DNA of 64,000 nt from contig NZ_PVZV01000006.1 in NCBI RefSeq assembly GCF_002995495.1, positions 620,001 through 684,000 on the forward strand, written 5' to 3'. The stretch is from Actinocorallia populi (lineage in GTDB: Bacteria; Actinomycetota; Actinomycetes; Streptosporangiales; Streptosporangiaceae). Below, piece after piece: positions 41,952 to 58,460 of this stretch. The translations under genes and the position numbers were made by a program. Below the pieces are notes generated by a model that was not told where the DNA came from, did no database searches, and saw only the letters and a program-made list of their open reading frames with translations. Positions within the stretch are counted from its first letter, which is position 1; each line of letters opens with the position of its first letter.

Positions 41952-43151
41952 CTACGGCGTGCGCACCGGAAGCGAGTCCCAGCCGCGGACCGCGGCCATC
42001 GGGTTGAACTCGGCGTTGTCCTGGTCGACCTCCCACTCGGGGAAGCGCTTGAGGATCTCCTCCAGGGCGATGCGGCCTTCCATGCGGGCCAGCGCCGCGC
42101 CGAGGCAGAAGTGGATGCCGCGGCCGAAGGTGAGGAGCTGTCCGCCGGCCTTGCGGTGGATGTCGAAGCGGTCGCCGTCGGGGTAGCGCCGGTCGTCGCG
42201 GTTGGCGGAGCCGTTGAGGAACATCATGACGCCGCCCTCGGGCACCACCTGGCCGTGGAGCCGCACGTCCTTGGCCACGTACCTGGCGATCTGGTGGGAG
42301 GGCGACTCGTAGCGCAGGAGCTCTTCGATGGCGCCCGGGATGAGAGAGGGGTCGGCGACCAGTTCGCGGCGTTGGTCGGGGTGGTCGGCCAGGATCTTCC
42401 CGATCCAGCCGATCAGCCGGTTGGTGGTCTCGTTGCCGGCGCCCGTGATGACGTTGACGTAGAGGAGGATCTCCTCGCGGGTCAGCCTCCGGCGGGTGCC
42501 GGTCTCGTCCTCGAACTCGGCACGCAGCAGGTCGGTCATGATGTCGTCGGAGGGGTGCTCGGCACGCCAGTCGATGTACCGGGCGAACATGTCGCTGTCG
42601 GCGAAGAACTTCGAGGTGTCCATGGGCTGCCCGGCCTCGGGGCGCAGGCCCTCGTCGACGCGGTCGCGGATCCACTCCTGGTCGTCCTCGGGGATGCCCA
42701 GCAGCATGCCGATCGTGCGCATCGGCACCTGCGCGCCGAGGTCGGCGACGAAGTCGAAGCCGCCGGCTCCGACCAGGGGGTCCAGGCTGCGCGCGCAGAA
42801 GGCGCGGATCTTGGGCTCCAGGGCCGCCACCTTCTTGGGCGTGAAGACACCCGACATCAGCCTTCGGTGGGTGGCGTGCATCGGCGGGTCCTCGAAGATG
42901 ACCACGCCCGGCGGGATCTCCATGTCGATCTTGATCAGCTCAAGGATGTTGCCGCGCCCCGAGATGTACGTCGCCGGGTCGGTCAGACCCCGGTCGACGT
43001 CCTCGAAGCGGCTGACGGCGTAGAAGTCGTGCTGCTCGTTGTAGTAGAGCGGCGCCTCCTCGCGCAGCCGGCGGTACACCGGATAGGGGTCGGCGTTGAT
43101 GCCGACGTCGTAAGGGTCGTAGTAGACGTCGCTCGCGTCGGTAACCGGCAT
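41952..43151 (-). CDS. Cytochrome P450 monooxygenase
   Basis: A 399-residue bacterial class I P450. The I-helix oxygen-activation motif is GAGNETT, the K-helix ExxR is in EELLRYESP, and the haem-binding loop FGRGIHFCLGAALARME holds ligand Cys349. Its close family is the soluble actinobacterial CYPs that need ferredoxin partners; none is encoded here. ATG 43151 follows gggagg. Two copies of the palindromic operator (43220, 43244) lie in its promoter region, so it belongs to the regulon of the TetR at 43304. It probably hydroxylates the cluster's substrate or an intermediate. Confidence 0.92.
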   Translation of the reverse strand: MPVTDASDVYYDPYDVGINADPYPVYRRLREEAPLYYNEQHDFYAVSRFEDVDRGLTDPATYISGRGNILELIKIDMEIPPGVVIFEDPPMHATHRRLMSGVFTPKKVAALEPKIRAFCARSLDPLVGAGGFDFVADLGAQVPMRTIGMLLGIPEDDQEWIRDRVDEGLRPEAGQPMDTSKFFADSDMFARYIDWRAEHPSDDIMTDLLRAEFEDETGTRRRLTREEILLYVNVITGAGNETTNRLIGWIGKILADHPDQRRELVADPSLIPGAIEELLRYESPSHQIARYVAKDVRLHGQVVPEGGVMMFLNGSANRDDRRYPDGDRFDIHRKAGGQLLTFGRGIHFCLGAALARMEGRIALEEILKRFPEWEVDQDNAEFNPMAAVRGWDSLPVRTP

Positions 43152-43219
43152 CACGGGCCCTCCCTCGGAACGGCGACCGTCCCCGACTCCGCACAACGAT
43201 GCTGAGCGGTCGCACAGCT

Positions 43220-43256
43220 GACACTCGGTGCCTCGCAAACTATGACACTCGGTGCC
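43220..43256. promoter_or_regulatory. Regulon operators A and B upstream of P450
   Basis: Two 13-bp palindrome-type sites, both gacactcggtgcc, are at 43220-43232 and 43244-43256. They are exactly 24 bp apart. They lie 68 bp and more upstream of the P450 ATG. Confidence 0.85.
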
Positions 43257-43303
43257 AGGGGTCAATACCCGCACCGGCGCCGGCATCGGCGAGGAGTGCG
43301 GCC

Positions 43304-43924
43304 TCAGGTGCGGGTGTCGGCAGGCCGCATGCGGCGGCTGTTCCGCACCGACTCCTCCAGACCGGGGAGCATCTGGGCCATGCTGAACGCGCGGTAGACG
43401 AGCTCGACGAGATTGCTCGACTCGTCGCGCAGCCATTGGTCGTACGCGGCGTTCGCGGCGCCGAGGGCGATGTGCGCGGCGAGCTGCGGGCCGAGATCCT
43501 CGACCGGCGCGTCCATGCGGCGCGCCGCGAACCGTGCCACGACCGCCTGCCAGTCGGCGTGCCGGAGCGCGGCGTTGGCCCGCAGCGCGGGCGTCTGCAG
43601 GATGAGCTTCATCCGCGCGCGGTGCGCGACGGGACCGTCGCTGTGCACGCGGTTGAACCACAACACCCCGTCCGCGATCACCTCGAACATCGGACGGTCG
43701 TCCGGTACGGACGTGAACCATTCATCGAGGTTGCGGAGGAGGGTCTCGAAATCTCCGAACAGGATGTTGTTCTTCGACTCGAAGTAGCGGAAGAAGGTGC
43801 GTCGCGCTATACCGGCCGCGGCGGCGATGTCGTCCACCGATGTCTCACGGAACCCCCGCTCCTCGAACAGTTCGAGCGCCACCTTCTCGACGGCCTCGAT
43901 CGGCACCTGCTGCGGCTTCTTCAC
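43304..43924 (-). CDS. TetR-family regulator, mycofactocin-system (MftR)-like; likely cluster regulator
   Basis: A 206-residue TetR protein. The helix-turn-helix is ALELFEERGFRETSVDDIA then GIARRTFFRYFESKNNILFGD. That RRTFFRYF-SKN pattern and the C-terminal ARMKLILQTPALRANA and ALGAANAAYDQWL resemble the MftR-type regulators of mycofactocin loci (from memory, not a search); no mft genes are here. The GTG start at 43924 has agggagag upstream. It is divergent from the VOC gene with operator C between them, and six copies of that operator dot the cluster. It is the best candidate for the protein that binds them. Confidence 0.88.
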   Translation of the reverse strand: MKKPQQVPIEAVEKVALELFEERGFRETSVDDIAAAAGIARRTFFRYFESKNNILFGDFETLLRNLDEWFTSVPDDRPMFEVIADGVLWFNRVHSDGPVAHRARMKLILQTPALRANAALRHADWQAVVARFAARRMDAPVEDLGPQLAAHIALGAANAAYDQWLRDESSNLVELVYRAFSMAQMLPGLEESVRNSRRMRPADTRT

Positions 43925-44052
43925 ACACCTCTCCCTTGCTGCAAGGCGGCACCGCTCTGCGGCGCGAGTGCGGGGCGGCGGGTGTCCGACACCGCTGACC
44001 GACCGTGCTCTCCCATCGCTTCGAGGAGGCCGCCCGTGTACCCGACAGCCTA

Positions 44053-44081
44053 TGGCACTCGGTGCCTCGCTGGAGTAGCCT
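44053..44081 (+). promoter_or_regulatory. Promoter with operator C before the VOC gene
   Basis: The palindromic operator ggcactcggtgcc (44054-44066) overlaps a -35-like tggcac (44053-44058). After 17 bp comes a -10-like tagcct (44076-44081). The same layout recurs at 45581-45609. The VOC ATG is at 44118, and the divergent tetR start is 129 bp to the left of the operator. Confidence 0.7.
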
Positions 44082-44117: not shown

Positions 44118-44528
44118 ATGCATCGCAACCTGTTGAGCACCATCGTCATCGATGTTCCTTCCGATGTCCGGGACCAGACCATCGCCTTCTGGTCGGCGGC
44201 ACTCGGCGCGACGCCCGCGGCCACGCGCATGCCGAACTACCACATCCTCCAGGACGCCTCCCCGGGCAACCGGATCGTCGTCCAGGACGTCGGCTCGGGC
44301 TCGGCCGGCATCCACTTCGACATCCACACCGACGACCTCGACGCGGAGGTCGAACGGCTCGCGGCATGCGGCGCGACCGTGGTCGACCGCACCTGGGCCG
44401 ACCACCCCGGCCGCTGGATCATCATGCGGGACCCGGCGGGCATGGAGTTCTGCGTCGTGGAGGCGCTCACCGAGCTGCGCCGCGCCGACCACGCCGATTT
44501 CGAGCGCCGGGCCAGGCCGACGGGCTGA
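44118..44528 (+). CDS. VOC-superfamily (glyoxalase/bleomycin-resistance fold) protein
   Basis: A 136-residue protein made of paired beta-alpha-beta-beta-beta modules. Conserved blocks are GIHFDIHTDDLDAEVERLAACGATVV and WIIMRDPAGMEFCVVEA. In this fold a His and Glu/Gln from each module bind a metal; here the His in HFDIH and the Glu in MEFCVV fit the pattern. Family roles include lyases, dioxygenases and binding proteins, so the reaction is open. It is the first rightward gene of the catabolic cluster, behind operator C, and is followed by an NTF2-like gene 41 bp downstream. Confidence 0.85.
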   Translation: MHRNLLSTIVIDVPSDVRDQTIAFWSAALGATPAATRMPNYHILQDASPGNRIVVQDVGSGSAGIHFDIHTDDLDAEVERLAACGATVVDRTWADHPGRWIIMRDPAGMEFCVVEALTELRRADHADFERRARPTG

Positions 44529-44569: not shown

Positions 44570-45010
44570 ATGAACCTGCCGGTCGAGGACGTGATCGAAC
44601 TGGAGCAGCTCTGCGCCGCCTACGCGCTGAAGATGACCCAGGGCGACATCGGCTACATCATCGAGCACATCTGCACGGACGACGGCACCTACAGCGCCTT
44701 CGGCGAGACGTACGGCCTGGAGGACTGGCCGAGGCTGGTGGAGGCCGCCCCGAAGGGCCTGTTCCTCACCGGCAGGCCCGTTCTCGAGCTCGACGGGGAC
44801 ACGGGCTCGGGCGAGGTGCCGCTGCTCTTCATCGACCAGACGAACCACCACATGCGCATGGGGTGGTACAGCGACACCTACCGGCGCACGGAGAACGGCT
44901 GGCGCCTGAGGACCCGCAGGATGACGTTCCTCCGCCGCAACGGCGGCGCCGACTCCGGAAAACCGCATGACCCCCGCCGTCCGAAGCCCTCGGCCGGACG
45001 TCCCGGCTGA
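44570..45010 (+). CDS. SnoaL/NTF2-like domain protein
   Basis: A 146-residue small cone-shaped domain protein (SnoaL_4 type). It opens with the N-terminal helix VEDVIELEQLCAAYALKMTQGD, then YIIEHICTDDGTYSAFG, and closes with NHHMRMGWYSDTYRRTENGWRLRTRRMTFLR. Family members act as hydratases, isomerases or small subunits of ring oxygenases, and the paired His in TNHHMRMG may be functional. It follows the VOC gene by 41 bp with acaggagg before its ATG, so both are in one operon. About 607 bp without a clear gene follow. Confidence 0.82.
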   Translation: MNLPVEDVIELEQLCAAYALKMTQGDIGYIIEHICTDDGTYSAFGETYGLEDWPRLVEAAPKGLFLTGRPVLELDGDTGSGEVPLLFIDQTNHHMRMGWYSDTYRRTENGWRLRTRRMTFLRRNGGADSGKPHDPRRPKPSAGRPG

Positions 45011-45616
45011 CGGCCTTCCGGCCGTGCGAGCGGGCCGCACCCGGGGCGGTCCGCGGACGCGCGTGGTGATCAGGTCCTTCTGGACCCGGGCGATACCGCC
45101 CATCCCGCTCCGCGCCCGGCCGTACGGGTGGGCGCGGAGCGGCGCCACGCCGACGGCCGCCGCGTTGCTCTCCCGGTGCGGCGAGGCCGAATAGATCGAC
45201 ACTCAGTGCCACCTCCCCTCGTGCGCGGCTCGCGGACGCCCTCGCTTGCCGCCGCGAGCACCGGCCCCGGAAAGGCGACATCGGCCGATCGCAGTGCCGG
45301 TGCATCGGCGACGATCGCCACCTCGACTCCCCGCACCCGAGACGCACCGGCGTCGTCGGCCGTGTGCAGCTCATCCCAGCCGGAACCGGCCACGGAGGTG
45401 TCGAATCCGGCCGTCCGCCCGGCGTTCTCGAGGCGTCCGACGGCGCGCCCGCCCACACGGTCCACGACCTGCGCGATCGCCTCGCACCGGTCGTGCCCCT
45501 CCAGGGGCAGCGGACGTCCACGGGTGCCCGATCGGCATGAAACGCTTGAAATTAACTGGCACTCAGTGCCTGGCGGGCTCTGGCACTGAGTGCCTCGCTC
45601 GGGTAGCGTCCCGGCC
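45011..45616. other. Gene-poor gap with operators D, E and F
   Basis: This 606-bp stretch has no convincing gene. A minus-strand frame between about 45215 and 45535 has protein-like content (for example GRTAGFDTSVAGSGWDELH) with GC-rich third positions, but less so than neighbours, and no good start. It may be a decayed gene. Operator D (gacactcagtgcc, 45198-45210) lies here although no gene begins close by; E and F precede the acyl-CoA ligase. Confidence 0.4.
45558..45609 (+). promoter_or_regulatory. Operators E and F with the acyl-CoA ligase promoter
   Basis: Operators ggcactcagtgcc (45558-45570) and ggcactgagtgcc (45582-45594), both perfect palindromes, are exactly 24 bp apart. F overlaps the -35-like tggcac (45581-45586); after 17 bp comes the -10-like tagcgt (45604-45609). 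The start codon at 45617 is only 7 bp downstream, so the mRNA is probably leaderless. This arrangement implies repression by blocking RNA polymerase. Confidence 0.8.
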
Positions 45617-47302
45617 ATGAGCGAATGTGAGACGCTCGCGGGGCCCCCGCTGCACGAGGCCACAGGCATCGGCGGCCGCACCCTCGGCGCCCTCCTGACC
45701 GAACTCTGCGCACGGGTCCCCGACCACGAGGCACTCGTCTTCGACGACCCGTTCCTGTGCGGCGCGACCGTACGGTGGACCTACGGCGACCTCGAACGGC
45801 AGGCCCGGCGCGTCGCGAAGGCGCTCCTGGCGGCGGGCATCGGCAAGGGAGCCCGGGTGGGCGTGCTCATGGGGAACCGGCCCGAGGCGGTCGCGTCCCT
45901 CTTCGGCGGCGCGCTCGCCGGCGCGGTCGTGGTGCCGCTGTCGACCTTCTCCCCGAAACCGGAGCTCTCCCACCTGCTCGCGCACGCCGACCTGAGCGTG
46001 CTCCTGCTCCAGACGACGATGGGCGCCCACCGGTTCGCCGCCGACGTCACCGAGCTGTGCCCGGCCGCCGCGAGCCCCGGGTCCATCGCCGACGCCGCAT
46101 ACCCCTACCTGCGCCATGCCGCGGCTCTCGGCCCGGTGGAGTACACGTGCGGGATCGAACCGTGGGAGCGGTTCCTGCAGCGCGGCGACACGATCGACGA
46201 CGAGCTGCTGGACGCCGCCGCCGCCCAGGTCCACGCCTCCGACCCCGCGGTCATCATCTACAGCTCGGGTACGACCGACCGGCCGAAGGGCGTGCTGCAC
46301 CACCACGAGGCGGTCGCGTTGCAGTGCTGGACGCAGGCCGGTCTGTTCGGCCGCGACGAGTCGACGCGGCTGTGGTGCGCGCTCCCGATCTTCTGGACCG
46401 CCGGCCTGAACGCGGCGATGGGGGCCACGCTCGCCGCCGGCGGCACCTGGGTGATGCAGGAGGTGTTCGAGCCCGGTCACGCGCTGCGGCTCATGGAGCG
46501 GGAGCGCGTGACCGAACCGCACACGCTCCCGCACCAGGCCCGCGCCCTGGAGGAGCACCCGGACTGGCCTTCGACCGACCTCTCGTCGTGCACGAGGGTC
46601 TTCGGCAAGTCGGTGTTCACCCGTCATCCGAGCGTCACCGGGGACACGAGCTGGAACATGCCGGTCGGCTACGGCTCGTCCGAGACGTGCTCGTTCTTCA
46701 CCGCCCATCCGTCCGGCACGCCGCGCGAGCTGCTGAGGCGGCGAGGCTACGGGCGGCTTCTCGCCGGAAACGAGCTCCGGGTCGTCGACCCCGAGACCGG
46801 CCGGGTGCTCGGCCCGGACGAGGAGGGCGAGCTCGCCGTGCGCGGGCCGACCCTCATGGACCACTACGTCAAGCGCACGCGCGCCGAGTGCTTCGACGCC
46901 GACGGCTTCTACCGCACCGGCGACCTCGGCTCGTACGACGAGGACGGGTACGTGTACTTCAGCGGACGCCGCACGGAAGTGATCAAGACCGCGGGCGCCA
47001 CCGTGTCACCGGCCGAGATCGAGGTCCGGTTGCAGGCGTACGAGCCGGTCAAGCTGGCGCGCGCCGTCGGCGTCCCGGACGACCGGCGCGCGGAGATCGT
47101 CGTGCTCTGCGTCGAGCTGAAAGCCGGTGCCACCGCGACCGAGGACGACATCAAGTCCTTCCTGCGCGAACGGCTGGCCGCCTACAAGGTGCCCAAACGA
47201 GTGCTCTTCTTCCCCGAAGGCGAGGTCCCGATGAACCGCAGCGGCATGAAGGTGAAGGACGAGGCACTCGTGGCCCTGGCGCGGGAACGGCTCAGCCGGT
47301 GA
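45617..47302 (+). CDS. Acyl-CoA synthetase / AMP-dependent ligase
   Basis: A 561-residue adenylate-forming enzyme that activates a carboxylic acid to its CoA thioester. The phosphate-loop motif is VIIYSSGTTDRPKGVLHHH, followed by GYGSSETCSF, the GELAVRGPTLMDHY block, hinge YRTGDLGSYDEDGYVYFSGR and C-terminal YKVPKRVLFFPEGEVPMNRSGMKVK with the catalytic Lys. Specificity is unknown; long acyl or cyclic acids are usual for this clade. The ATG at 45617 follows its promoter so closely that the transcript is probably leaderless. A GTGA overlap joins it to the next VOC gene. It starts the main eastward operon of the cluster. Confidence 0.92.
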   Translation: MSECETLAGPPLHEATGIGGRTLGALLTELCARVPDHEALVFDDPFLCGATVRWTYGDLERQARRVAKALLAAGIGKGARVGVLMGNRPEAVASLFGGALAGAVVVPLSTFSPKPELSHLLAHADLSVLLLQTTMGAHRFAADVTELCPAAASPGSIADAAYPYLRHAAALGPVEYTCGIEPWERFLQRGDTIDDELLDAAAAQVHASDPAVIIYSSGTTDRPKGVLHHHEAVALQCWTQAGLFGRDESTRLWCALPIFWTAGLNAAMGATLAAGGTWVMQEVFEPGHALRLMERERVTEPHTLPHQARALEEHPDWPSTDLSSCTRVFGKSVFTRHPSVTGDTSWNMPVGYGSSETCSFFTAHPSGTPRELLRRRGYGRLLAGNELRVVDPETGRVLGPDEEGELAVRGPTLMDHYVKRTRAECFDADGFYRTGDLGSYDEDGYVYFSGRRTEVIKTAGATVSPAEIEVRLQAYEPVKLARAVGVPDDRRAEIVVLCVELKAGATATEDDIKSFLRERLAAYKVPKRVLFFPEGEVPMNRSGMKVKDEALVALARERLSR

Positions 47303-47763
47303 ACGGCGACGAGCAGGGCCCGCTGCGGCACTCCGCCCTCTTCCACACCGGCGTCGTCGTCGACGACCTCGCCTCCGCCAAGGAGGAGCTCGGCGGCAGC
47401 CTCGGCGTCACGTGGCACGCCGGCGGCGCCGACGTGCGGCTGATCACCGACGACGGCGCGCGAACCGTGCGGACGGCCTACGCGCTCTCCCGAGAGGGCC
47501 CGCACCACGTCGAGCTGTGCCAGTCGGTCGAGGGGACGTTGTGGACGGCGACCGCGCAGGGCGGCGCCCACCACCTCGGCTACTGGGTCGACGACGTGGC
47601 ATCGGCCTCCGCGGCGCTGGAACGGCTCGGCTCGCGCAGGATCGCGAGCATCGCCGTCAACGACGACGCATCGCCGTTCTGCGCCTACCACCGGACCGGC
47701 AACGGGCTCTTCGTCGAGATCGTCGCTCTGGCCTTCCGGCCGCTGCTCTTGCCCGCGAAGTGA
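47299..47763 (+). CDS. VOC-superfamily protein
   Basis: A 154-residue two-module VOC protein. It starts LRHSALFHTGVVVDDLASAKEEL and has HHVELCQSVEGTLW and AHHLGYWVDDVASASAALERLG, then the C-terminal GNGLFVEIVAL with the likely metal-binding Glu. The pattern H...E...H...E is compatible with a glyoxalase/dioxygenase metal site. The GTG at 47299 overlaps the ligase stop by 4 bp. Its job in the pathway is unknown; isomerisation or ring opening of a CoA ester is possible. Confidence 0.82.
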   Translation: MNGDEQGPLRHSALFHTGVVVDDLASAKEELGGSLGVTWHAGGADVRLITDDGARTVRTAYALSREGPHHVELCQSVEGTLWTATAQGGAHHLGYWVDDVASASAALERLGSRRIASIAVNDDASPFCAYHRTGNGLFVEIVALAFRPLLLPAK

Positions 47764-47806: not shown

Positions 47807-49186
47807 ATGACCACTGCCGACATGGGGCCGCGTCCCGGGGAGGTCGACGACGTCCCGCGCGGCGAACGCTTCTACCAGCGGCTGCTCGACGAGGACACCC
47901 GGCCGGTTCCCGCGAGCCTGCGCGCGACGTCGGCCGGCCCGCCGGACGGTGCGGGCATCGCACCCTCCCGCTACTTCGACCCCGAGATCCACCGGCTCGA
48001 GGTCGAACGGGTGTGGAACCGGGTCTGGCAGATGGCGTGCCGCGAGGAGCAGATCCCCGAGGTCGGCGACTCCGTCGTCTACGAGATCGCCGACACCTCG
48101 CTCATCGTCGTGCGTACCGCGCCGGACGAGATCCGCGCCTTCCACAACTCGTGCCTCCATCGGGGCACGCAGCTCCGGACCCGGGCCGGCCACGTCAAGC
48201 GGTTCCGCTGCCCCTACCACGGGTTCACCTGGAACCTCGACGGGAGCCTCCACGAGATCCCCTGCGCGTGGGACTTCCCGCAGGTCGATCCGGCCACGTT
48301 CCGGCTCCCCGAAGCACGGGTCGGAACGTGGGGCGGGTTCGTGTTCGTGAACACCGATCCGAACGCCGGACCGCTGGAGGAGCACCTGGAGGACCTGCCG
48401 GCGCACTTCACCGCGTGGCCGCTGGAGGAGCGGCGCCTCACCGCACACATCGTGCGGACGATGCCGTGCAACTGGAAGGTGGCGCTCGAGGCGTTCATCG
48501 AGGCCTACCACACGATGACGGTGCACCCTCAGCTGCTGCGCACGGCGGCGGACACGCTGACCCAGTACGACGTCTACGGCCCGCATGTCAGCCGCATGCT
48601 CACCGCGGTCGGCATCAGCAGCGAGCACCTCGACCGCCCGCTCGACGACGCAGAGATCGTCAAGGCCATGCTCGGCTCCACCGAGGAGGAGATCGTCCTC
48701 GAACCGGGATCGACGGCCCGCAGGGTGCTGGCGGACCGGGTGCGCGCCTCGCTGCACCGGCGCACGGGCCGCGACCACGCGCACATCACCGATGCCGAGG
48801 CGCTCGACGGCATCGAATACTTCCTCTTCCCGAACTTCATGCCGTGGGGCGGGTACCTGACCTCGTTCGCCTACCGGTTCCGTCCGGACGGCAACGATCC
48901 CGGCTCGTGCGTGATCGACATCATGGTGCTCGAGCCGGTCCCGCAAGACGGCCCCCGCCCGCCCGCCGCCAAGACCCGCTACCTCGGCCCGGACGAGAGC
49001 TGGACCGACGCCCCCGAGCTCGGCGTCTTCGGCCGGGTGTTCAACCAGGACGGCGCCCGGTTCGCGCGCGTCCAACGCGGCCTGCGCGCCTCGGTGCGGA
49101 CGAGCGGCACGCTGGCGCGCTACCAGGAGAGCCGGATCCGCCATTTCCACGCGACGCTCGACGCCTATTTCACCCGGTCCGACTGA
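47807..49186 (+). CDS. Rieske-type ring-hydroxylating oxygenase, large subunit
   Basis: A 459-residue oxygenase alpha subunit. The Rieske [2Fe-2S] cluster is bound by Cys116-x-His118 and Cys135-x2-His138 (NSCLHRG and RCPYHGFTW). The mononuclear iron site is in the C-terminal catalytic domain, visible as EAFIEAYHTMTVHPQLL with the usual two His. It would insert oxygen into an aromatic or alicyclic ring; electron-transfer partners are not encoded nearby. cggagg precedes ATG 47807. No beta subunit gene is seen, so it is likely a homomeric (three-component or ketosteroid-hydroxylase-like) type. Confidence 0.92.
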   Translation: MTTADMGPRPGEVDDVPRGERFYQRLLDEDTRPVPASLRATSAGPPDGAGIAPSRYFDPEIHRLEVERVWNRVWQMACREEQIPEVGDSVVYEIADTSLIVVRTAPDEIRAFHNSCLHRGTQLRTRAGHVKRFRCPYHGFTWNLDGSLHEIPCAWDFPQVDPATFRLPEARVGTWGGFVFVNTDPNAGPLEEHLEDLPAHFTAWPLEERRLTAHIVRTMPCNWKVALEAFIEAYHTMTVHPQLLRTAADTLTQYDVYGPHVSRMLTAVGISSEHLDRPLDDAEIVKAMLGSTEEEIVLEPGSTARRVLADRVRASLHRRTGRDHAHITDAEALDGIEYFLFPNFMPWGGYLTSFAYRFRPDGNDPGSCVIDIMVLEPVPQDGPRPPAAKTRYLGPDESWTDAPELGVFGRVFNQDGARFARVQRGLRASVRTSGTLARYQESRIRHFHATLDAYFTRSD

Positions 49187-50592: not shown

Positions 50593-50608
50593 GGGGACGG
50601 TGATCATC

Positions 50609-51463
50609 ATGAAAGCGGAGAGAACGCCGCGGACGGGCGTGTGCAGGCCCGTGACCGCCGAGGAAGTCGATCATTTCCACGAGTTCGGCTGGGTGAAGCT
50701 CCCAGGGTTCGTCGACCCCGATGTCCTGCGCGCCATGCTCGGCGACGCACGCGAGAAGATGGGCGACGACGCCGACAGCAACCCGCTGTCCCCCGGTCTC
50801 GCCGCCGCGGTGGCGGAGGGGCGGACGGGGTTGTCCTACTTCAACGCCCAGCGCAGCTCGGGCCTCTCCCACCCCGTGATACGGCCTCTGATCCATGACG
50901 CGGGCGGCAACGCGAAGCGGCTGCAGCGGCGTACCACCGCCGGCGGCGCGGACGTCGGCGTCCGGTACTACTCGGACTTCTTCGTACCGAAGCTGCCCGC
51001 CGCGAAGGAGTCGCGGCACGGAGGCAACGGTCCCACGGCCTTCCACCAGGACTTCATCACCTTCAGCGTCGACCGGTCCGGGGGCATGACCTTCTGGATC
51101 CCCCTGGAGTCCTACGGTCCGGAGGCCGGGACGATGTCGTTCGTGAACGGGTCGCACCGCGCCGGGGTGCTCGGCGACTACACGACCTACGGGGACGGCG
51201 ACGCCCTCGACGCCTTCCCCGAGCTCCGCGAGCTGCCGATGTCCGAGCCGATGACGTACGAGCTGGGCGACGTCACGGTGCACACCCACCTCACCATCCA
51301 CGGCGCCGGCGCGAACACGATGGACCGGCCCCGCTGGGCCTACCTCCTCGTGACGCAGCCGGCCGACGTCCGCTGGAACGGCTCGCCGTGCCCGAACTTC
51401 GACTCGACCGCCATGAAGCCCTGGGAGCCGTTCGGCGACGAGCGCTTCCCGCTGATCGGCTGA
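50609..51463 (+). CDS. Phytanoyl-CoA dioxygenase (PhyH)-family protein
   Basis: A 284-residue Fe(II)/2-oxoglutarate-dependent dioxygenase. The iron ligands are the H-x-D in TAFHQDFITFSV and the distal His in THLTIHGAG; the C-terminal Arg in DRPRWAYLL probably binds 2-oxoglutarate. PhyH enzymes hydroxylate acyl-CoAs or other small molecules. ATG 50609 is preferred over GTG 50600 because gagggga then sits 11 bp away. It lies 17 bp after the amidohydrolase stop, in the same operon. Confidence 0.88.
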   Translation: MKAERTPRTGVCRPVTAEEVDHFHEFGWVKLPGFVDPDVLRAMLGDAREKMGDDADSNPLSPGLAAAVAEGRTGLSYFNAQRSSGLSHPVIRPLIHDAGGNAKRLQRRTTAGGADVGVRYYSDFFVPKLPAAKESRHGGNGPTAFHQDFITFSVDRSGGMTFWIPLESYGPEAGTMSFVNGSHRAGVLGDYTTYGDGDALDAFPELRELPMSEPMTYELGDVTVHTHLTIHGAGANTMDRPRWAYLLVTQPADVRWNGSPCPNFDSTAMKPWEPFGDERFPLIG

Positions 51464-51515: not shown

Positions 51516-52049
51516 ATGGTCACCCTGCCCTTTCCGAACCGGAACTTCATGCAGATGTGCTGGGTGGTGCCCGATCTGCGGGCCGCCATCGACTCCTGGG
51601 TGCGGGCCGCCGGCGTCGGGCCGTTCTTCTGGTTCGACGGCGTCCCCTGCACCGACGGCCGTTACCGCGGGCGGCCCGCCGAGTTCCCGGCGGTCACGGC
51701 CGCCATCGCCTACGCAGGCGATCTGCAGATCGAGCTCGTCTGCCAGGACGACGACGAACCGTCGATCTTCTCCGAGCTCGTCCCCCGCGGGCGGTCCGGG
51801 CTCCACCACGCCGGACTGGTCTGCCGCGACTACGAAACCGAGCGCGACACCTACATCGAAGCGGGCGCGACGCTCGCGTTCGAGGGCGTCATCGGCACCA
51901 GCCGCACCTGCTGGCTCGACACGTCCCCCACGCTCGGATTCATGATCGAGCTGCTGGAGCCCAGCGCGACGCGAGACGCGGGCTTCGCCGCCATGCGCAA
52001 GGCCGCCGACATCTGGGACGGCACCGACCCGATCGTCGGCCTCTCCTGA
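51516..52049 (+). CDS. VOC-superfamily protein (methylmalonyl-CoA-epimerase-like)
   Basis: A 177-residue VOC protein. Its N-terminal FMQMCWVVPDLRAAIDSWVRAAGVGPFFWFDGVP and the block SGLHHAGLVCRDYETERDTYIEAGATLAFEG resemble the Glyoxalase_4 type. Conserved HH and the C-terminal GFMIELLEPS (Glu) fit a metal site. It is the third VOC protein of the cluster and sits 29 bp ahead of the second acyl-CoA ligase. Function is open; epimerase or dioxygenase activity is possible. Confidence 0.82.
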   Translation: MVTLPFPNRNFMQMCWVVPDLRAAIDSWVRAAGVGPFFWFDGVPCTDGRYRGRPAEFPAVTAAIAYAGDLQIELVCQDDDEPSIFSELVPRGRSGLHHAGLVCRDYETERDTYIEAGATLAFEGVIGTSRTCWLDTSPTLGFMIELLEPSATRDAGFAAMRKAADIWDGTDPIVGLS

Positions 52050-52078: not shown

Positions 52079-53716
52079 ATGGACGAGACCGAACCGGCGT
52101 CGACGTTTCCGGCGCTGTTCGCAGAGATCGTCGCGGCACGCGGCGACCATGACGCGCTCATCCTCGCGCACGAGACGCTGACCTATCGGGAGCTCGACCG
52201 CAGGTCCGCCAGGATGGCACGGGCGCTACTGGCCGCAGGCGTGGGCAAGGGGACGCGGATCGGACTGCTGGCGCCCGACGGAGCGCTCTGGCTGACGACC
52301 TTCTACGCGGCCCTGCGGATCGGCGCCCTCATCACGCCCATCAGCACGCTGGCGACACCACCCGAACTGGCGCACATCATCCGCACGAGCGACGCCCAGA
52401 TCCTCATCGGGACACGCTGCTTCCTCCGTCACGACTACGCCGAGAAACTCGTCACGGCCCTGCCCGGACTGGGCGAGGGCAAAGCGGCGGCGCTGCGGCT
52501 CCCCGGCGCTCCTCATCTGCGGTCCGTCTGGCTCGACGGTGCCGACGGACTGCCGTGGGCGCGGCCGGTCGGCGACCTCCTCGCCAAGGCCGACGCCCCC
52601 GACGCGCCCGATGCCGTGCTGCTCGCCGCCGCGGAGCAGGAGGTGTCACCGGGCGACGACGCGTTCGTCGTCTATACCTCGGGAAGCACGGCGACCCCGA
52701 AAGCGGTGGTGCACGGGCAGTGGGCGGTCGCCCGCCAGCCGCGGGCGCTCGCCGCGTACTTCCTCCTGACCGGCGACGACCGCACCATGCCGTTGCTGCC
52801 CGCGTTCTGGATGGGCGGCATCGCCGCCGCTCTCCAGGTCCTGAGCACGGGCGGAACGCTGGTGTACCCGCCCTCCCCCGACCTCGAAGACGCGCTCGAC
52901 ATGATCGAGCGGCACGACGTCACCTACGTGGTCGTCTGGCATGTCCTGGCGAAGCTCCGGGCGGCGGCGATCGCGCGGGGCATCGACGTCGACGGCATCC
53001 GCGGCATGGGGGGCCCGTCACGCGACGAACGGGGAGAGGCAGTCCCGCCACCGCTCCGGGCCAACCTGCTCGGAATGTCGGAGAGCTTCTCCGCGCACAG
53101 CGCCGAGCCGGTCAACCGGCGCATGCCGGACGGCAAGGCGGGCGCCTCGGGCCGGGCGGTGAACGGCATCGAACGGCGCGCGGTGGATCCGGAGACCGGG
53201 GCGGAGGTGCCGCCCGGCGAGATCGGTGAGCTCCAGCTCCGCGGCGGCGCGCTGATGACCGGTTTCTACAAGGTCGACCGGCGCAGGGTGTTCACGCCGG
53301 ACGGCTTCTACCCCACGAACGATCTGGTGCGCATCGACGCCGACGGCTACGCCTTCTTCGTCGGCCGGACCGGCGACATGATCAAGACCAGCTCCGCCAA
53401 CGTGTCACGGCTGGAGGTCGAGGCCGCCCTGAACTCGCTGCCGGAGGTGGCGCTGTCGCTCGTCACCGCGCTGCCCCATCCGGAGTCCGGGGAGATCGTC
53501 GCGGCGGCGGTGGTCCCGGCGCCGGGCGCCGCCCCGACCGAGGACGGCCTGCGGACGGCGCTGCGCGACCGCCTGTCGAGCTTCAAGATCCCCCGCCGCA
53601 TCGTGTTCGTCACGCACGACGACGTCCCGAGGACGGCGACGGGGAAGGTGAGGCTCTTCGACCTGGCCGAACTGATCGCATCCCGCACCTCGACACCCGC
53701 AGGAGAGCACGTATGA
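52079..53716 (+). CDS. Acyl-CoA synthetase / AMP-dependent ligase (second)
   Basis: A 545-residue adenylate-forming ligase with phosphate loop VVYTSGSTATPKAVVHG, NLLGMSESFSAH, GELQLRGGALMTGFYK, hinge YPTNDLVRIDADGYAFFVGR and C-terminal FKIPRRIVFVTHDDVPRTATGKVR with the catalytic Lys. It differs from the ligase at 45617 in every block, so the two probably activate different intermediates of one pathway. ATG 52079 has gaaaggagc upstream; an earlier in-frame ATG at 52055 lacks it. It overlaps the following crotonase gene by 4 bp. Confidence 0.92.
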   Translation: MDETEPASTFPALFAEIVAARGDHDALILAHETLTYRELDRRSARMARALLAAGVGKGTRIGLLAPDGALWLTTFYAALRIGALITPISTLATPPELAHIIRTSDAQILIGTRCFLRHDYAEKLVTALPGLGEGKAAALRLPGAPHLRSVWLDGADGLPWARPVGDLLAKADAPDAPDAVLLAAAEQEVSPGDDAFVVYTSGSTATPKAVVHGQWAVARQPRALAAYFLLTGDDRTMPLLPAFWMGGIAAALQVLSTGGTLVYPPSPDLEDALDMIERHDVTYVVVWHVLAKLRAAAIARGIDVDGIRGMGGPSRDERGEAVPPPLRANLLGMSESFSAHSAEPVNRRMPDGKAGASGRAVNGIERRAVDPETGAEVPPGEIGELQLRGGALMTGFYKVDRRRVFTPDGFYPTNDLVRIDADGYAFFVGRTGDMIKTSSANVSRLEVEAALNSLPEVALSLVTALPHPESGEIVAAAVVPAPGAAPTEDGLRTALRDRLSSFKIPRRIVFVTHDDVPRTATGKVRLFDLAELIASRTSTPAGEHV

Positions 53717-54705
53717 CGGAGAAGGACAGCCGCCCCACGGCGGAGGAGATCGTCCTGTACGAGAAGGACCCGAAGACCAAGATCGCGACGATCACGCTCG
53801 ACCGCGCCGACGATCTCAACGCCATGACGATCGACGCCCAGCACCGCTACGCCGACCTCGTCCGGATGGCCGGCGTCGACGACGACGTCAAGGTGCTGGT
53901 GATCCGGGCGAACGGCCGACACCTCGGCAGCGGCGCCGACCTCCCCGAACTGCTGGACATCATGGCCGGCCGGGGCGACGTCCCCATGAAGCACATCGTC
54001 CGGGTCCCCGACGACGCGGACGTCGTGTACCCCCCGAAGGGCTCGTACCGCTACGGCGCGACGAACGTCCAGTCCTACACCGACCCGAGCGCCGGGATGC
54101 GGAGCCTGCAGGACTTCAAGAAGATCAGCATCCTCGAAGTGCGGGGCTACTGCTACGGCTGGCACTTCTACCAGGCGGCCGACGCCGACATCGTCATCTC
54201 CTCCGACGACGCCCTGTTCGGGCATGCCGCGTTCCGCTACGCCGGTTACGCGGCGCGGCAGTGGCAGTGGTGCACGATGATGGGCCTCCGCAAGTTCATG
54301 GAGATGGTGTTCACCGGTCGGCCGTTCACCGCCAAGGAGATGTACGACTGCGACTTCGTCAACGCGGTCGTTCCCTTCGAGGAGCTCGAAGCGATGACGG
54401 AGAAGTACGCGCTCGCCTGCTCCCGCTCCCGGCCGACGGACACGGTCTTCGTCCAGAAGACGTTCTTCGAGATCTACAAGCAGCATCAGGGCGAGTACAT
54501 GGGCAGCATCCTCGCCGGCCTGCTCGAGTCGACCGGACGGCTGCTCCGGCCCGACGGCACGTCGCTGGAGCTCGACCGGGAGATGCTCGACCGCGGCCTG
54601 ACGAGCTCCGTCCGGGACAACGACGAGCGTTTTCCCCCCGACTGGCGCCTCAGCCAGCGGGGCCGGGCCGCCGAACACTCCAGCCGAAACCCAGAGGAAG
54701 GATGA
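53713..54705 (+). CDS. Enoyl-CoA hydratase/isomerase (crotonase) family, long form
   Basis: A 330-residue crotonase-fold protein, about 70 residues longer than usual; the extra part is an insertion of about 50 residues (110-160) after the GSGADLPEL oxyanion-hole block. Core features are TITLDRADDLNAMT, RANGRHLGSGADLPELL and YGWHFYQAADADIVISSDDALFGHAAF. It acts on CoA esters: hydration, isomerisation or C-C cleavage. The canonical catalytic Glu positions are not obvious, so it could be a hydrolase-like or non-standard crotonase. It overlaps both neighbours by 4 bp (ATGA). Confidence 0.85.
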   Translation: MTEKDSRPTAEEIVLYEKDPKTKIATITLDRADDLNAMTIDAQHRYADLVRMAGVDDDVKVLVIRANGRHLGSGADLPELLDIMAGRGDVPMKHIVRVPDDADVVYPPKGSYRYGATNVQSYTDPSAGMRSLQDFKKISILEVRGYCYGWHFYQAADADIVISSDDALFGHAAFRYAGYAARQWQWCTMMGLRKFMEMVFTGRPFTAKEMYDCDFVNAVVPFEELEAMTEKYALACSRSRPTDTVFVQKTFFEIYKQHQGEYMGSILAGLLESTGRLLRPDGTSLELDREMLDRGLTSSVRDNDERFPPDWRLSQRGRAAEHSSRNPEEG

Positions 54706-55976
54706 CGATGTTGATCCTGACGAACGCGAGAGTCTTCGACGGCAGGCAGATGCTCCCCGACAAGCACGACGTGCTCCTCGACGGAGACCGGATCAAGGCC
54801 ATCGACGCGCCCGGCACGGTGTCCGGCGAGGTCGTCGACGTGGGCGGCATGACGCTGATGCCCGGCCTCATCACCTGCCACCTGCACCCGGACTTCTACA
54901 AGTTCGACGTCTTCTCCGGCGAGAAGCCCGGCAAGGAGCTCCCGCCCGGCGTCATGATGGCGATCGGCGTCCGCACCTGCCGGGTCCTGCTGGAGAGCGG
55001 CTTCACCGGCTACGCCGGCGCGGCCTGCGCGCACGACATCGACGCCCAGCTCAAGATCGCCATCGAACAGGACATCATCCCCGGTCCCCGCATCCGCGCG
55101 TGCGGCCATCACCTCGGCACCACCGGCGACATGAACAACAAGTCGCGGTGGTGGAAGCGCTACGAGACGCCCGGCCTCGACCTCCTCGCCGACGGCCCCG
55201 ACGCCCTGCGCAAGCTGGTCCGCGAGGAGATCAGCCGCGGCGTCGAGACGATCAAGATCTTCGCCGGCTCCGGGCACGGCATCCCCAACCGCACGACGCG
55301 CAACATGTCACGCGACGAGATCGCCTCGGTCGTGAACACCGCCCACGAACGCGGCGCCAAGGTGCGCGCCCACGTCGCCGACAAGCAGATGATCCTCGAG
55401 TGCGTCGAGCTCGGAGTCGACATCGTCGACCACGGCGACGAGGTCGACGAGGAGTGCGTCCGGGCCATGGTGGAGGCGGGGACCTTCTGGGTCCCCAGCC
55501 TCGTCTACCTCTGGAGCCTGTTCGAGGTCGGCTACGCCGCGCAGTTCGGCGTGACGCGGGCCCAGTACGACCATGTGCGGGCGATGCTCCCGGTCGCCCA
55601 GAAGGCGGGCGTCCGGATCCTGATCGGAGACGACTACAGCGGCGTGTTCCGCACCATGCTCGAGAACGACCCGCTCGACCACCAGGTCGGCAACTACGGC
55701 CGTGAGTTCGCCTTCTACGGCCAGATCGACGGGCTGTCACCGGCCGAGATCCTGAGCTGGGGCACCAGTAACGCCGGCCAGCTGCTGGTGGACCCGCCGG
55801 CGAGGGTCGGCGTGATCGAGCCGGACGCCATGGCCGACCTCATCATCGTCGACGGCGACCCGCTCGCCGACCTGTCGCTGCTCGCCCGACCCGACGAGGC
55901 ACTCAAGGCGGTCATCCGAGACGGCGCCTTCGTGATCGACCGGCTCGCTTCACGCAAGGACCACGCTGCGGCCTGA
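54702..55976 (+). CDS. Amidohydrolase / imidazolonepropionase-like metal hydrolase
   Basis: A 424-residue amidohydrolase-1-family protein. It opens LILTNARVFDGRQML with the usual small N-terminal beta domain, then GLITCHLHPDFYKF with the H-x-H metal pair, a possible Lys in VETIKIFAGSGHGIP, His in VRAHVADKQM and VDIVDHGDEVDEE, and Asp in ILIGDDYSGVF. The C-terminal beta domain returns with ADLIIVDGDPLADLSLL. It is unlike the amidohydrolase at 49222 and probably opens a ring or cleaves an amide or lactam. It overlaps the crotonase stop by 4 bp. Confidence 0.87.
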   Translation: MTMLILTNARVFDGRQMLPDKHDVLLDGDRIKAIDAPGTVSGEVVDVGGMTLMPGLITCHLHPDFYKFDVFSGEKPGKELPPGVMMAIGVRTCRVLLESGFTGYAGAACAHDIDAQLKIAIEQDIIPGPRIRACGHHLGTTGDMNNKSRWWKRYETPGLDLLADGPDALRKLVREEISRGVETIKIFAGSGHGIPNRTTRNMSRDEIASVVNTAHERGAKVRAHVADKQMILECVELGVDIVDHGDEVDEECVRAMVEAGTFWVPSLVYLWSLFEVGYAAQFGVTRAQYDHVRAMLPVAQKAGVRILIGDDYSGVFRTMLENDPLDHQVGNYGREFAFYGQIDGLSPAEILSWGTSNAGQLLVDPPARVGVIEPDAMADLIIVDGDPLADLSLLARPDEALKAVIRDGAFVIDRLASRKDHAAA

Positions 55977-56031: not shown

Positions 56032-56784
56032 ATGGGAAGAACCGAACAACGCAAGGTCGTCTTCGTGACCGGCGCCGCTTCGGGCATCGGTCGTGCCGCG
56101 GCGGAGTCCTTCGTCCGCCGCGGCTACGCGACGGTGCTCGCCGACCTGAACGAGGAGGCCGGACTCGGCGTGGCGGCCGAGCTGGGCCGACTGGGCGAAT
56201 GCAGCTTCTTCCGCTGCGACGTGACCGACGACGACACCGTCCGCGAGGCGGTGGCCGGGGCCGTCGCGACCTACGGCCGCCTGGACGCCGCGTTCAACGC
56301 CGCCGGCATCGACGGCGAGCACGGCAGGCCCACCGCCGAGTGCACCATGGAGAACTGGAACCGGGTGATCGCCGTCGACCTGACCGGCACCTGGTCCTGC
56401 ATGCGCTATGAGCTGCCCGAGATCGTCAGGGCCGGTGGCGGCTCCATCGTGAACTGCGCGTCGGTGGCCGGGCTCCGGGCGGCGCCCACGGTGCCGGCCT
56501 ACACCGCCGCCAAGCACGGCGTGGTCGGCCTGACCAGGGTCGCGGCGCGCGAGTACGCCGGTTCCGGCGTGCGGGTGAACGTCATCTGCCCCGGGACCGT
56601 GGACACGCCGATGTTCCGCCGGTCGATGCCGCCCGAGACCGTCGAGCGCCTCGTGTCGGGCAATCCGGTGGGGCGCCTGGCCGAGGCGAACGAGATCGCG
56701 GACGTCGCGCTGTGGCTGTGCGACGAGGCCCCCGGCTACCTCACCGGCCAGGCGATCGCGGTGGACGGCGGCACGGGCGCATGA
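56032..56784 (+). CDS. Short-chain dehydrogenase/reductase (classical)
   Basis: A 250-residue SDR with TGAASGIGRAAAESF, Asp-containing VLADLNEEAG (suggesting NAD+), FNAAGIDGEHG, catalytic Ser in NCASVAGLRAAP, Tyr/Lys in AYTAAKHGVVGLT, and C-terminal GYLTGQAIAVDGGTGA. NAD+-linked oxidation of a hydroxylated intermediate is the likely direction (inference). It has gaggagca upstream and lies in the same eastward run, 55 bp after the amidohydrolase. Confidence 0.9.
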   Translation: MGRTEQRKVVFVTGAASGIGRAAAESFVRRGYATVLADLNEEAGLGVAAELGRLGECSFFRCDVTDDDTVREAVAGAVATYGRLDAAFNAAGIDGEHGRPTAECTMENWNRVIAVDLTGTWSCMRYELPEIVRAGGGSIVNCASVAGLRAAPTVPAYTAAKHGVVGLTRVAAREYAGSGVRVNVICPGTVDTPMFRRSMPPETVERLVSGNPVGRLAEANEIADVALWLCDEAPGYLTGQAIAVDGGTGA

Positions 56785-56834
56785 CGCGCACCCGATCTGA
56801 CGGGACCGCCCGGTCCCAGGACGGAGACAGGACC

Positions 56835-57629
56835 ATGGCGACCCCGTCGTCACTCGGCGATCCCCGAACGGCGCCCGGCGAACGGCCGGGCGCCCGGCCG
56901 GAGCGGACCGTCGAGCAGGAGCGCCTGCACCGCAGACAGCGCCTGGCGGGCGCGTACCGGATCTTCGCCCGGCTCGGCCTGCACGAGGGGCTGGCCGGTC
57001 ACATCACGGCCCGCGACCCCGAGCGGCCCGACCATTTCTGGGTCAACCGGTTCGGCGTCGACTTCAGCCGGATCACCGTCTCGAACCTGCTGCTGGTGGA
57101 CGCGGAGGGCGAGATCGTCGAGGGCCGGGGGCCGCTGAACACGGCGGCGTTCGCCATCCACTCCCGCATCCACGAGGCGCGCCCGGACGTCGTCGCCGCG
57201 GCGCACAGCCACTCGGTCTACGGCAAGGCGCTGTCGGCCATCGGCGAGCCCCTGCATCCCGTCAACCAGGACGCGTGCGCCTTCTACGAGGACCACGTGA
57301 TCTTCGATGACTACGCCGGCGTCGTGCTGAGCACCGACGAGGGCGACCGGATCGCCGCCGCGCTCGGCCGGTGCAAGCTGGCCCTGCTGGCCAACCACGG
57401 GCTGCTGTCGGTCGGGAGGTCGGTCGAGTCGGCCGCGTACTGGTACATCGCGGCAGAGCGCGCGGCGAAGGCCCAGCTCATCGCGGCCGCCGCCGGCACG
57501 TTGAAGCACATCGACCACGACACGGCCAGGCTGACCGCCGGCCAGATCGGCGGCGAGTCCCTGGCGCGCCGGTCGTTCGAGGCGCTGTACCAGGTCGTCA
57601 TCGAGGAAGAGCCCGGCTTCCTCGACTGA
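56835..57629 (+). CDS. Class II aldolase/adducin-family protein
   Basis: A 264-residue aldolase-class-II-fold protein. The zinc site is AAHSHSVYGKALSAIGE with the H-x-H, a third His in LLANHGLLSVG and probable Glu nearby. The N-terminal block ARLGLHEGLAGHITARDPER is typical of the fuculose-aldolase/adducin family, which cleaves C-C bonds or decarboxylates hydroxy-acids. Two starts fit: ATG 56835 with ggagacagg upstream, and ATG 56781, which overlaps the SDR stop (ATGA). I chose the shorter because the extra 18 residues look non-homologous. Confidence 0.85.
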   Translation: MATPSSLGDPRTAPGERPGARPERTVEQERLHRRQRLAGAYRIFARLGLHEGLAGHITARDPERPDHFWVNRFGVDFSRITVSNLLLVDAEGEIVEGRGPLNTAAFAIHSRIHEARPDVVAAAHSHSVYGKALSAIGEPLHPVNQDACAFYEDHVIFDDYAGVVLSTDEGDRIAAALGRCKLALLANHGLLSVGRSVESAAYWYIAAERAAKAQLIAAAAGTLKHIDHDTARLTAGQIGGESLARRSFEALYQVVIEEEPGFLD

Positions 57630-57683
57630 CACCGCTCGAGCGGGCCGGTTCGAACAGCACGCCAAGCCCCGTGAGGAGGGGAG

Positions 57684-58460
57684 ATGGTCGTTCTCAGTGA
57701 GCACGTCGGCGACGGCGTGCTCGTCCTGACCCTCAACCGGCCCGACCACCACAACGCGTGGACGCTGGAGATGGAACTGCTCTACAACGAGTCGTTCGAC
57801 CGCGCCGAGAAGGATCCGGACGTGCGGGCGGTGGTGCTGACCGGGGCGGGGCGCAGTTTCTGCCCGGGAATGGACATGGCCGTGCTCGAGGCCTCCTCCT
57901 CCGGGGCCGATCCCTATCCCGCGGACCGGCTGCCGCCGCGCGTCCGTCCCCTCATGTTCCCCAAGCCGGTGATCGCGGCGGTGAACGGGGCGTGCGCGGG
58001 GATCGGGTTCAACCAGGCGCTCATGTGCGATCTGCGGTTCGCCGCGCCCGGTGCCAAGTTCTCCGCCGCGTTCAGCCGACGTGGCCTCATCGCCGAGGAC
58101 GGCGTCTCGTGGCTGCTGCCGCGCGTCGTCGGCTTCGGCCGGGCGAGCGACCTGCTGCTGTCCTCCCGGCCGGCCACCGCCGTCGAAGCGCTGGAGATGG
58201 GTCTGGTCAACCGGCTGGTGGACTCCGAGGACCTGCTGGCGGCGGCGGTCGACCACGCGGGTGAGATCGCGCGCCTGTGCAGCCCGCACGCCATGTCGGT
58301 GATCAAACGGCAGCTGCTGGAAGACCAGGCCCGCACCTTCGGCGAGGCCGCTGCGAACGCCCGCTCCCTGCTGGCGGAGGCGAGGAGGTCCCCCGACTAC
58401 CGGGAGGGCGTGCGCAGTTTCGTCGAGCGCCGTACGCCGCGTTTTCCCGGCCTGAGCTGA
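57684..58460 (+). CDS. Enoyl-CoA hydratase/isomerase (crotonase)
   Basis: A 258-residue classic-length crotonase. It shows LTLNRPDHHNAW, the oxyanion-hole block GAGRSFCPGMDM, AVNGACAGIGFNQALMCDLRFA, and FSRRGLIAEDGVSWLLPRVVGFG with the catalytic Glu and Asp region. It should hydrate or isomerise an enoyl-CoA of the pathway. It is the last gene of the eastward cluster, with ggaggggag upstream. It differs from the long-form crotonase at 53713. Confidence 0.9.
   Translation: MVVLSEHVGDGVLVLTLNRPDHHNAWTLEMELLYNESFDRAEKDPDVRAVVLTGAGRSFCPGMDMAVLEASSSGADPYPADRLPPRVRPLMFPKPVIAAVNGACAGIGFNQALMCDLRFAAPGAKFSAAFSRRGLIAEDGVSWLLPRVVGFGRASDLLLSSRPATAVEALEMGLVNRLVDSEDLLAAAVDHAGEIARLCSPHAMSVIKRQLLEDQARTFGEAAANARSLLAEARRSPDYREGVRSFVERRTPRFPGLS

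Follow-up and report, generated by a model that had tools for sequence, protein, structure and literature searches.

The dit abietane cluster of Pseudomonas and Burkholderia includes a coenzyme A (CoA) ligase, a two-subunit ring-hydroxylating dioxygenase with a ferredoxin, and an extradiol dioxygenase. According to the available part of its description, a P450 and a Rieske dioxygenase act there in diterpenoid catabolism (PMC6891630). The available text of two further reports places PtmU3 and AibH2 in the class of amidohydrolase-related dinuclear oxygenases (AROs) (PMC10811679, PMC10401708). According to the accessible text of a third report, PtmU3, from the platensimycin/platencin pathway (PDB 6OMP), catalyses a beta-hydroxylation in diterpenoid biosynthesis and accepts substrates ligated to CoA (PMC7782822). 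DitZ of Rhodococcus rhodochrous (PDB 8UYR, Mn-substituted) is suggested by its name, and by its name only, to belong to diterpenoid catabolism. Here we compare with these systems a cluster of 16 genes at positions 41952-58460 of a 64,000-nucleotide stretch of the Actinocorallia populi genome (contig NZ_PVZV01000006.1, positions 620,001 to 684,000, forward strand), henceforth referred to as the window.

The cluster is real, rare and conserved. We propose, with a probability of roughly one half, that it is a horizontally spread actinobacterial regulon for the degradation, as CoA thioesters, of a bulky, branched or cyclic and most likely isoprenoid carboxylic acid, in which hydroxylation by an ARO would be followed by C-C cleavage. 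Like dit, it combines a P450 with a Rieske oxygenase and encodes CoA ligation. Unlike dit, it lacks a ferredoxin, an extradiol dioxygenase and a beta subunit for the Rieske enzyme, and it carries a PhyH protein, a probable ARO and an Amidohydro_1 protein instead. Pfam and NCBIfam searches found none of these three missing components among the 16 genes, nor any reductase or thiolase; a preliminary description of the window had already reported the lack of ferredoxin and thiolase. We found no characterised counterpart to the gene set in the literature searched (titles and the starts of abstracts, with most subscription papers outside its coverage), which agrees with the view of the preliminary description that this is an unusual, coherent, CoA-linked oxidative cluster. 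That description had named synteny with a characterised degradation cluster as the finding that would speak against it, and synteny was found only with loci for which we found no characterisation. One candidate, the gromomycin cluster, was set aside: in the available part of its description, groA-groI (three Rieske genes, a polyprenyl synthase, a P450 and others) do not include the core families. A saxitoxin report was likewise discarded on the basis of its title.

Judging from its sequence, the protein encoded at 49222-50592 is probably an ARO, that is, a predicted dinuclear metal-dependent oxygenase. It matches PF04909 (Amidohydro_2) with 78.7 bits (cut-off 26.4), and a phmmer search against the PDB returned PtmU3 first (E 8e-36) and DitZ second. 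The available text of PMC7782822 gives the metal ligands of AibH2, an Mn/Fe or Fe2 ARO, as Asp25, His27, His211, Glu265, Asp337 and His340, and states that an acidic residue two positions after the last His (Glu313 in PtmU3) is kept only in binuclear enzymes. All six AibH2-type ligands are present in the cluster protein (D25, H27, H250, E301, D371 and H374), and E376 is equivalent to E313 of PtmU3. SfbO, also an Mn/Fe or Fe2 ARO, has a site of the same kind, as far as its available description goes (PMC10811679). The seven site residues are invariant in a 16-row alignment (A3). We also aligned 30 rows comprising the orthologues and two further ARO groups, three of the rows being calls of one gene of Actinomadura sp. 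7K507. Five of the residues, including Glu376, are present in 30 out of 30 rows, and D25 and H27 in 25, the other five rows being gapped there (short gene calls or cut contigs).

PtmU3 is the best match of the cluster protein by sequence, by profile and by VIA-align, and all seven site residues align. The A3 profile scores PtmU3 at 204.8 bits and DitZ at 176.6; the next protein, 5-carboxyvanillate decarboxylase (4icm), scores 89.6 bits; there, a His aligns with E301 and the DxxHx[DE] end is missing. The D-x-H, H, E and D-x-x-H residues of DitZ align with the cluster protein at 21% identity, with Asp rather than Glu as the last acidic residue. Comparison of the predicted fold gave Z 29.4 for PtmU3 (root-mean-square deviation 3.4, 321 aligned), 27.8 for DitZ and 26-27.5 for other AROs; Foldseek ranked DitZ first and PtmU3 second. 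A neighbouring small Rieske gene has served as a discovery heuristic for AROs (PMC10811679), and AibH2 and SfbO, whose substrates differ, are tied to such a gene in the available texts (PMC7782822, PMC10811679). None of the 16 cluster genes encodes a small Rieske protein, the only Rieske gene nearby being that of a 459-aa oxygenase. This neighbour is a heuristic and not a defining feature of AROs, and PtmU3 was described before the heuristic.

Because the Amidohydro_2 protein carries the full ARO metal site, the cluster probably holds four oxygenase chemistries rather than the three counted in the preliminary description. Of the two different amidohydrolases named there, one (Amidohydro_1) stands as a true amidohydrolase, and the other is the probable dinuclear oxygenase. 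The genome as a whole is rich in orphan candidates of this class: it holds 21 PF04909 genes, of which 17 match the ARO profile and 11 have the six ligands. Nine of these 11, including the cluster's own ARO, also have the seventh, acidic residue.

The second unusual enzyme is the 330-aa crotonase (53713-54705; PF00378, 57.4 bits, cut-off 27). The catalytic glutamates of hydratases correspond to E144 and E164 of the rat enzyme. At these two positions, the crotonase has Tyr153 and Ala or Ser173 in 26 out of 26 aligned family sequences. Aligned with 9qwv, an annotated hydratase, its GWHFYQA stands opposite GGGCELA and its FGHAA opposite FGQPE. Since both hydratase glutamates are absent, canonical hydration is unlikely, and C-C cleavage or another enolate reaction would be the natural alternative. 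A single-sequence fold of this protein had a mean predicted local distance difference test score (pLDDT) of 35.7 and was not used.

Genes were called with a codon-position gene caller and assigned to families by Pfam and NCBIfam searches. All the gene families named in the preliminary description were recovered among the 16 genes. The interval it gave (43151-58460) held for the gene list and failed at its start, as 43151 is the start codon of the P450, whose body (41952-43151) falls outside. The genes, the predicted operator copies and one gene remnant are as follows.

41952-43151, minus strand: cytochrome P450 (PF00067, 91 bits), divergent from the main operon
43220-43232 and 43244-43256: two operator copies, GACACTCGGTGCC, upstream of the P450
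43304-43924, minus strand: TetR (MftR-like) regulator, TetR_N and TetR_C_14 (TIGR03968 217 bits, slightly below the cut-off of 224.9)
44054-44066: operator copy upstream of VOC1
44118-44528, plus strand: VOC1, Glyoxalase_6 (Pfam)
44570-45010, plus strand: SnoaL_4, NTF2-like protein (Pfam)
45041-45154, minus strand: C-terminal remnant of an acyl-CoA dehydrogenase subunit (tblastn), inside the 606-bp gap 45011-45616
45198-45210: operator copy inside the same gap
45558-45570 and 45582-45594: two palindromic operator copies upstream of CoA ligase 1
45617-47302, plus strand: CoA ligase 1, AMP-binding (Pfam, NCBIfam)
47299-47763, plus strand: VOC2, Glyoxalase_4 (Pfam)
47807-49186, plus strand: Rieske oxygenase alpha subunit, Rieske and Ring_hydroxyl_A, 459 aa
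49222-50592, plus strand: probable ARO (PF04909, Amidohydro_2)
50600-51463, plus strand: PhyH-type Fe/2-oxoglutarate dioxygenase (Pfam), with invariant H149-x-D151
51516-52049, plus strand: VOC3, Glyoxalase_4 (Pfam)
52079-53716, plus strand: CoA ligase 2, AMP-binding (Pfam)
53713-54705, plus strand: 330-aa crotonase (PF00378), neither hydratase glutamate present
54702-55976, plus strand: true amidohydrolase, Amidohydro_1, prolidase-like (Pfam)
56032-56784, plus strand: SDR oxidoreductase (Pfam)
56835-57629, plus strand: class II aldolase (Pfam, NCBIfam)
57684-58460, plus strand: second crotonase, ECH258, 258 aa (PRK06210 310 bits, cut-off 341)

The remaining catalytic sites were inspected in turn. 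Rieske oxygenases carry a CxH...CxxH motif and a catalytic YH...H, with a bridging Asp in dioxygenases. The cluster protein has the Rieske motif and YHxxxxH, and its Glu232 (EAYH) aligns with the template Asp when three cluster sequences are aligned. The iron site of Fe/2-oxoglutarate PhyH proteins is HxD...H; H149, D151 and a candidate distal His (H228/H230/H234) are invariant in 14 sequences. In the Amidohydro_1 protein, the His, Lys and Asp residues typical of the superfamily are present. The gene that immediately follows the cluster, on the opposite strand, belongs to the erythromycin-esterase family (58503-59774, minus strand; PF05139, 395 bits) and is only weakly like EreB. Elsewhere in the window, two regulator-like genes at 2670-3338 (plus strand) and 3342-4013 (minus strand) converge to within 3 bases and have very similar N-termini.

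We identified 12 loci related to the cluster; they come from Actinomadura, mycobacteria, the Frankia group and one Acidimicrobiales metagenome-assembled genome (MAG). Eleven of them came from two ARO peptide patterns scanned over 84,980 species and the twelfth is on a Mycobacterium branderi megaplasmid; the per-gene counts hold for the stretches read. A core of ARO, PhyH, VOC3, CoA ligase 2, 330-aa crotonase, Amidohydro_1 and SDR occurs in one order in 10 of the 12 loci. CoA ligase 2, the crotonase and the SDR are missing from L072 and L074, and the ARO of L075 is cut by a contig end. VOC3 and Amidohydro_1 are present in all 12 loci, and CoA ligase 2, the crotonase and the SDR (73-86%) in 10 each. 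P450 orthologues (59-81%) also occur in 10 and are partial in L073. The other genes are less widespread: TetR (60-80%) and VOC1 (59-83%) in six loci each, SnoaL (75-88%) and the set of Rieske, VOC2 and CoA ligase 1 in five each, and the aldolase (69-74%) in the four Frankia-group clusters. ECH258 belongs to the cluster by position only, since the stretches read of the 12 loci contain no orthologue (best match 35%). Actinomadura sp. 7K507 has its gene blocks in another order, and neither the aldolase nor ECH258 was found in the stretch read.

The cluster is rare in the genomes searched. Among 297 genomes of the order, seven contain a match to the Rieske protein at E ≤1e-60, and the cluster gene itself is found only in its own genome and in 7K507 (86%). 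The next match is at 51%, and in the four genomes read at ≥20 kb (five loci, 36-51%) there was no such cluster. Across 11 genomes, Rieske identity was 86% for 7K507 and 70-71% for four Frankia-group genomes; the remaining matches were at most 40%, apart from one at 48% and two partial ones at 42-44%. PhyH was detected at E 1e-60 in 2 out of 294 genomes, and the ARO profile at E 1e-100 hit 1 out of 396 genomes of the phylum sample, namely the window itself. Horizontal transfer is suggested by the rarity of the cluster, its patchy distribution and its location on a plasmid in M. branderi. AveC-like spirocyclase genes lie near the clusters of Parafrankia EUN1f (L128:7897-9069) and M. branderi (L046:25379-26449).

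The preliminary description had placed the cluster under one operator type. The 8.25 Mb genome has nine distinct exact GRCACTSRGTGCC sites, six within the cluster (at 43220, 43244, 44054, 45198, 45558 and 45582) and three outside; the reversed control pattern has one match genome-wide. The search that located the six cluster sites gave 10 matches over both strands with up to one mismatch, compared with a mean of 1.69 and a maximum of 6 in shuffles. Exact copies of the palindrome GGCAC-N3-GTGCC, whose middle varies, occur in L065, L066, L067, L069, L070 and L071, which are the six clusters with an orthologous TetR (60-80%). Six mycobacterial loci (L046, L068, L072-L075) have no exact copy and 0-4 scattered one-mismatch matches each, and in five of the six a different TetR was seen. 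Because the palindrome accompanies the same TetR in six clusters, the claim of one operator type holds, and the predicted operator probably belongs to that TetR. The cluster is probably co-regulated. Predicted sigma-70 promoters (0) and terminators (3) were not above shuffles, and one "terminator" is an operator palindrome.

The gap upstream of CoA ligase 1 is the trace of a lost enzyme. Three Frankia-group clusters (L066, L067 and L070) have an intact acyl-CoA dehydrogenase of two subunits in the interval from SnoaL to Rieske. PimC and IpdE2 are the NCBIfam models closest to it, with scores far under cut-off. The pair is broken into pieces in 7K507 and absent from the corresponding place in Pseudofrankia (L069). 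The gap at 45011-45616 aligns by blastn with that of 7K507 at 68% over 608 bases, the last 84 of which are inside CoA ligase 1. A tblastn search of two short stretches recovered the 38-aa C-terminal remnant on the expected strand, at 50% identity (E 1.7e-7). The dehydrogenase pair kept by three relatives is thus decayed in this cluster. Paralogues elsewhere in the genome (best 62%) could substitute for it. Plain relocation to contig C10 was rejected, the C10 copy being 82% identical to a M. setense gene and 62% to the Frankia-cluster gene; it may still substitute.

The C10 copy belongs to a further catabolic island of this genome (contig C10, 13405-40171; L139, L140 and L142). This island has orthologues (64-82%) of the genes flanking the M. 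setense ARO module, namely those for the CoA ligase, the dehydrogenase pair, an enoyl-CoA hydratase (ECH), the SDR, the thiolase and MeaB, as well as relatives of genes beside the type-2 loci described below (51-73%), and a two-gene B12 acyl-CoA mutase. Based on this comparative adjacency, it may hold the lower pathway.

Relatives of the 330-aa crotonase (54-64%) were detected at E 1e-40 in 12 out of 396 genomes of the phylum sample, including the cluster's own. We read 18 loci around such relatives (L047-L064), which are mutually related and not independent events. Another ARO, of group c7, occurs in 12 of the 18 (L047-L057 and L059), three genes from the crotonase in 11 and farther away in L057; none was found in the stretch read for the other six. 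In aligned rows, it is 21-23% identical to the cluster ARO. A P450 of the cluster's subfamily (62-67%) is present in 7 of the 18. The 12 loci with the c7 ARO, henceforth type-2, share with the cluster (type-1) a homologue of the crotonase (57-64%) and an ARO, and five also share the P450 subfamily. They differ in the ARO itself and in that M24 peptidases and a double CoA transferase replace PhyH, CoA ligase 2 and Amidohydro_1. No characterisation of type-2 loci was found in the literature searched. All five named Mycobacterium/Mycolicibacterium genomes tested carry the c7 ARO (72-91%), so most type-2 genomes can be read as mycobacteria; the L047 genome belongs to another family. The c7 ARO also occurs in the Acidimicrobiales MAG (62%), and searches of 7K507 and of the four Frankia-group genomes gave no match at E 1e-60. 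One M. branderi plasmid (NZ_AP022607.1) carries both a type-2 locus (559730-564772; P450, ferredoxin, M24 and amidohydrolase) and a type-1 core (694000-706000).

From these data, a putative route can be drawn, whose catabolic direction and order of steps we infer. TetR, bound to GRCACTSRGTGCC, would probably repress the cluster until an acyl or acyl-CoA ligand appears. The P450 would carry out an early oxidation and the two CoA ligases would activate acids, after which the core would act on CoA thioesters. The ARO would hydroxylate an unactivated carbon which, as for PtmU3, is probably the beta carbon or one close to it, and PhyH would add a hydroxyl beside the thioester. The 330-aa crotonase would then cleave or rearrange a C-C bond instead of hydrating. 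A cyclic product or an amide would be hydrolysed by Amidohydro_1, with the SDR and class II aldolase completing the route. Ring opening and side-chain removal may both be involved. The Rieske oxygenase, CoA ligase 1 and VOC2 would be an add-on found only in Actinomadura/Frankia-type clusters. As for the substrate class, analogy with PtmU3 and DitZ and the dehydrogenase pair of the Frankia clusters point to an isoprenoid-like acid; pairs of that type are known from bulky ring substrates.

Several observations weigh against this reading. PtmU3 is only 26% identical to the cluster ARO over 321 aligned residues and is biosynthetic, so that it gives only a weak indication of the substrate. The ARO fold is also matched by decarboxylases from its superfamily (Z about 25), and an M. 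avium amidohydrolase that is itself uncharacterised reaches Z 26.5, within the ARO score range. The AlphaFold2 (AF2) model has a mean pLDDT of 65.6 and a predicted template modelling score (pTM) of 0.74; because its site loops (26-32, 251-276 and 370-380) fall below a pLDDT of 50, the metal-site geometry stays predicted. Although the P450, the Rieske oxygenase and the ARO need electrons, the cluster has no ferredoxin or reductase to feed them, and the donors must be encoded elsewhere. The 7K507 locus was first found through its Rieske gene and that of M. branderi through its crotonase; the ARO was the sole query that found the other ten, so its presence in these 10 of the 12 loci is by selection. 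Finally, the aldolase and the Rieske set, present in 4 and 5 of the 12 loci, may not be central.

Of the alternatives, the one that survives best, although we consider it doubtful, is that the cluster is a tailoring or degradation branch of secondary metabolism, in which a terpenoid or polyketide is modified for biosynthesis or self-resistance and not for growth. The nearest ARO is biosynthetic, as are SnoK/SnoN/EvdO2, the only solved PhyH relatives found, and P450, SnoaL and PhyH are common tailoring enzymes. However, Pfam detected no terpene synthase, polyketide synthase (PKS) or nonribosomal peptide synthetase (NRPS) among the 16 genes, and acyl-CoA dehydrogenases flank the mycobacterial and Frankia-group copies, with thiolase, CoA transferase and ECH genes beside single ones. 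It is somewhat less probable that two or three independent small pathways (the Rieske set, the ARO core and an aldolase/ECH tail) share a common operator. In the stretches read, neither the Rieske set nor the aldolase occurs in the mycobacterial and Acidimicrobiales loci, and none of the 12 loci has an ECH258 orthologue; yet the operator is common, the strand contiguous, and the Rieske set and the core stay together in 5 of the 12 loci despite differing block orders. An ordinary hydrolytic or beta-oxidation cluster, with a mononuclear decarboxylase or hydratase as the Amidohydro_2 protein and a normal hydratase as the 330-aa crotonase, is equally improbable. PF04909 does contain many non-oxygenases and the fold matches decarboxylases too, but the six AibH2 ligands and the acidic residue reported to mark binuclear enzymes are invariant, decarboxylase 4icm departs from them at the E301 position and the DxxHx[DE] end, and the crotonase lacks both hydratase glutamates.

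The degradative regulon proposed here thus remains our preferred reading. A broader idea, which we hold only tentatively, is that the type-1 and type-2 loci represent a so far unrecognised aerobic route through hindered (quaternary or tertiary) CoA-thioester skeletons, in which the ARO would place a hydroxyl where dehydrogenation is impossible and the crotonase would cleave the C-C bond, a pairing that would have been assembled at least twice.

AROs have only recently been recognised as a class of oxygenases; few of them are characterised, and the label "amidohydrolase" conceals them. The ARO-crotonase core is a notable feature within CoA-linked oxygenative catabolic clusters, and this cluster gives an ARO a fixed enzymatic context, with a CoA ligase, a PhyH protein, a crotonase with an altered active site and one testable operator. 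It also shows the loss of a dehydrogenase pair with retention of the oxygenase core. The question of what orphan PF04909 proteins do becomes a defined one, concerned with hindered natural acids and their CoA-linked catabolism in soil actinomycetes, Frankia and mycobacteria. If the broader idea is true, the pairing of an ARO with a crotonase would be a general alternative to beta-oxidation for terpenoid-like acids.

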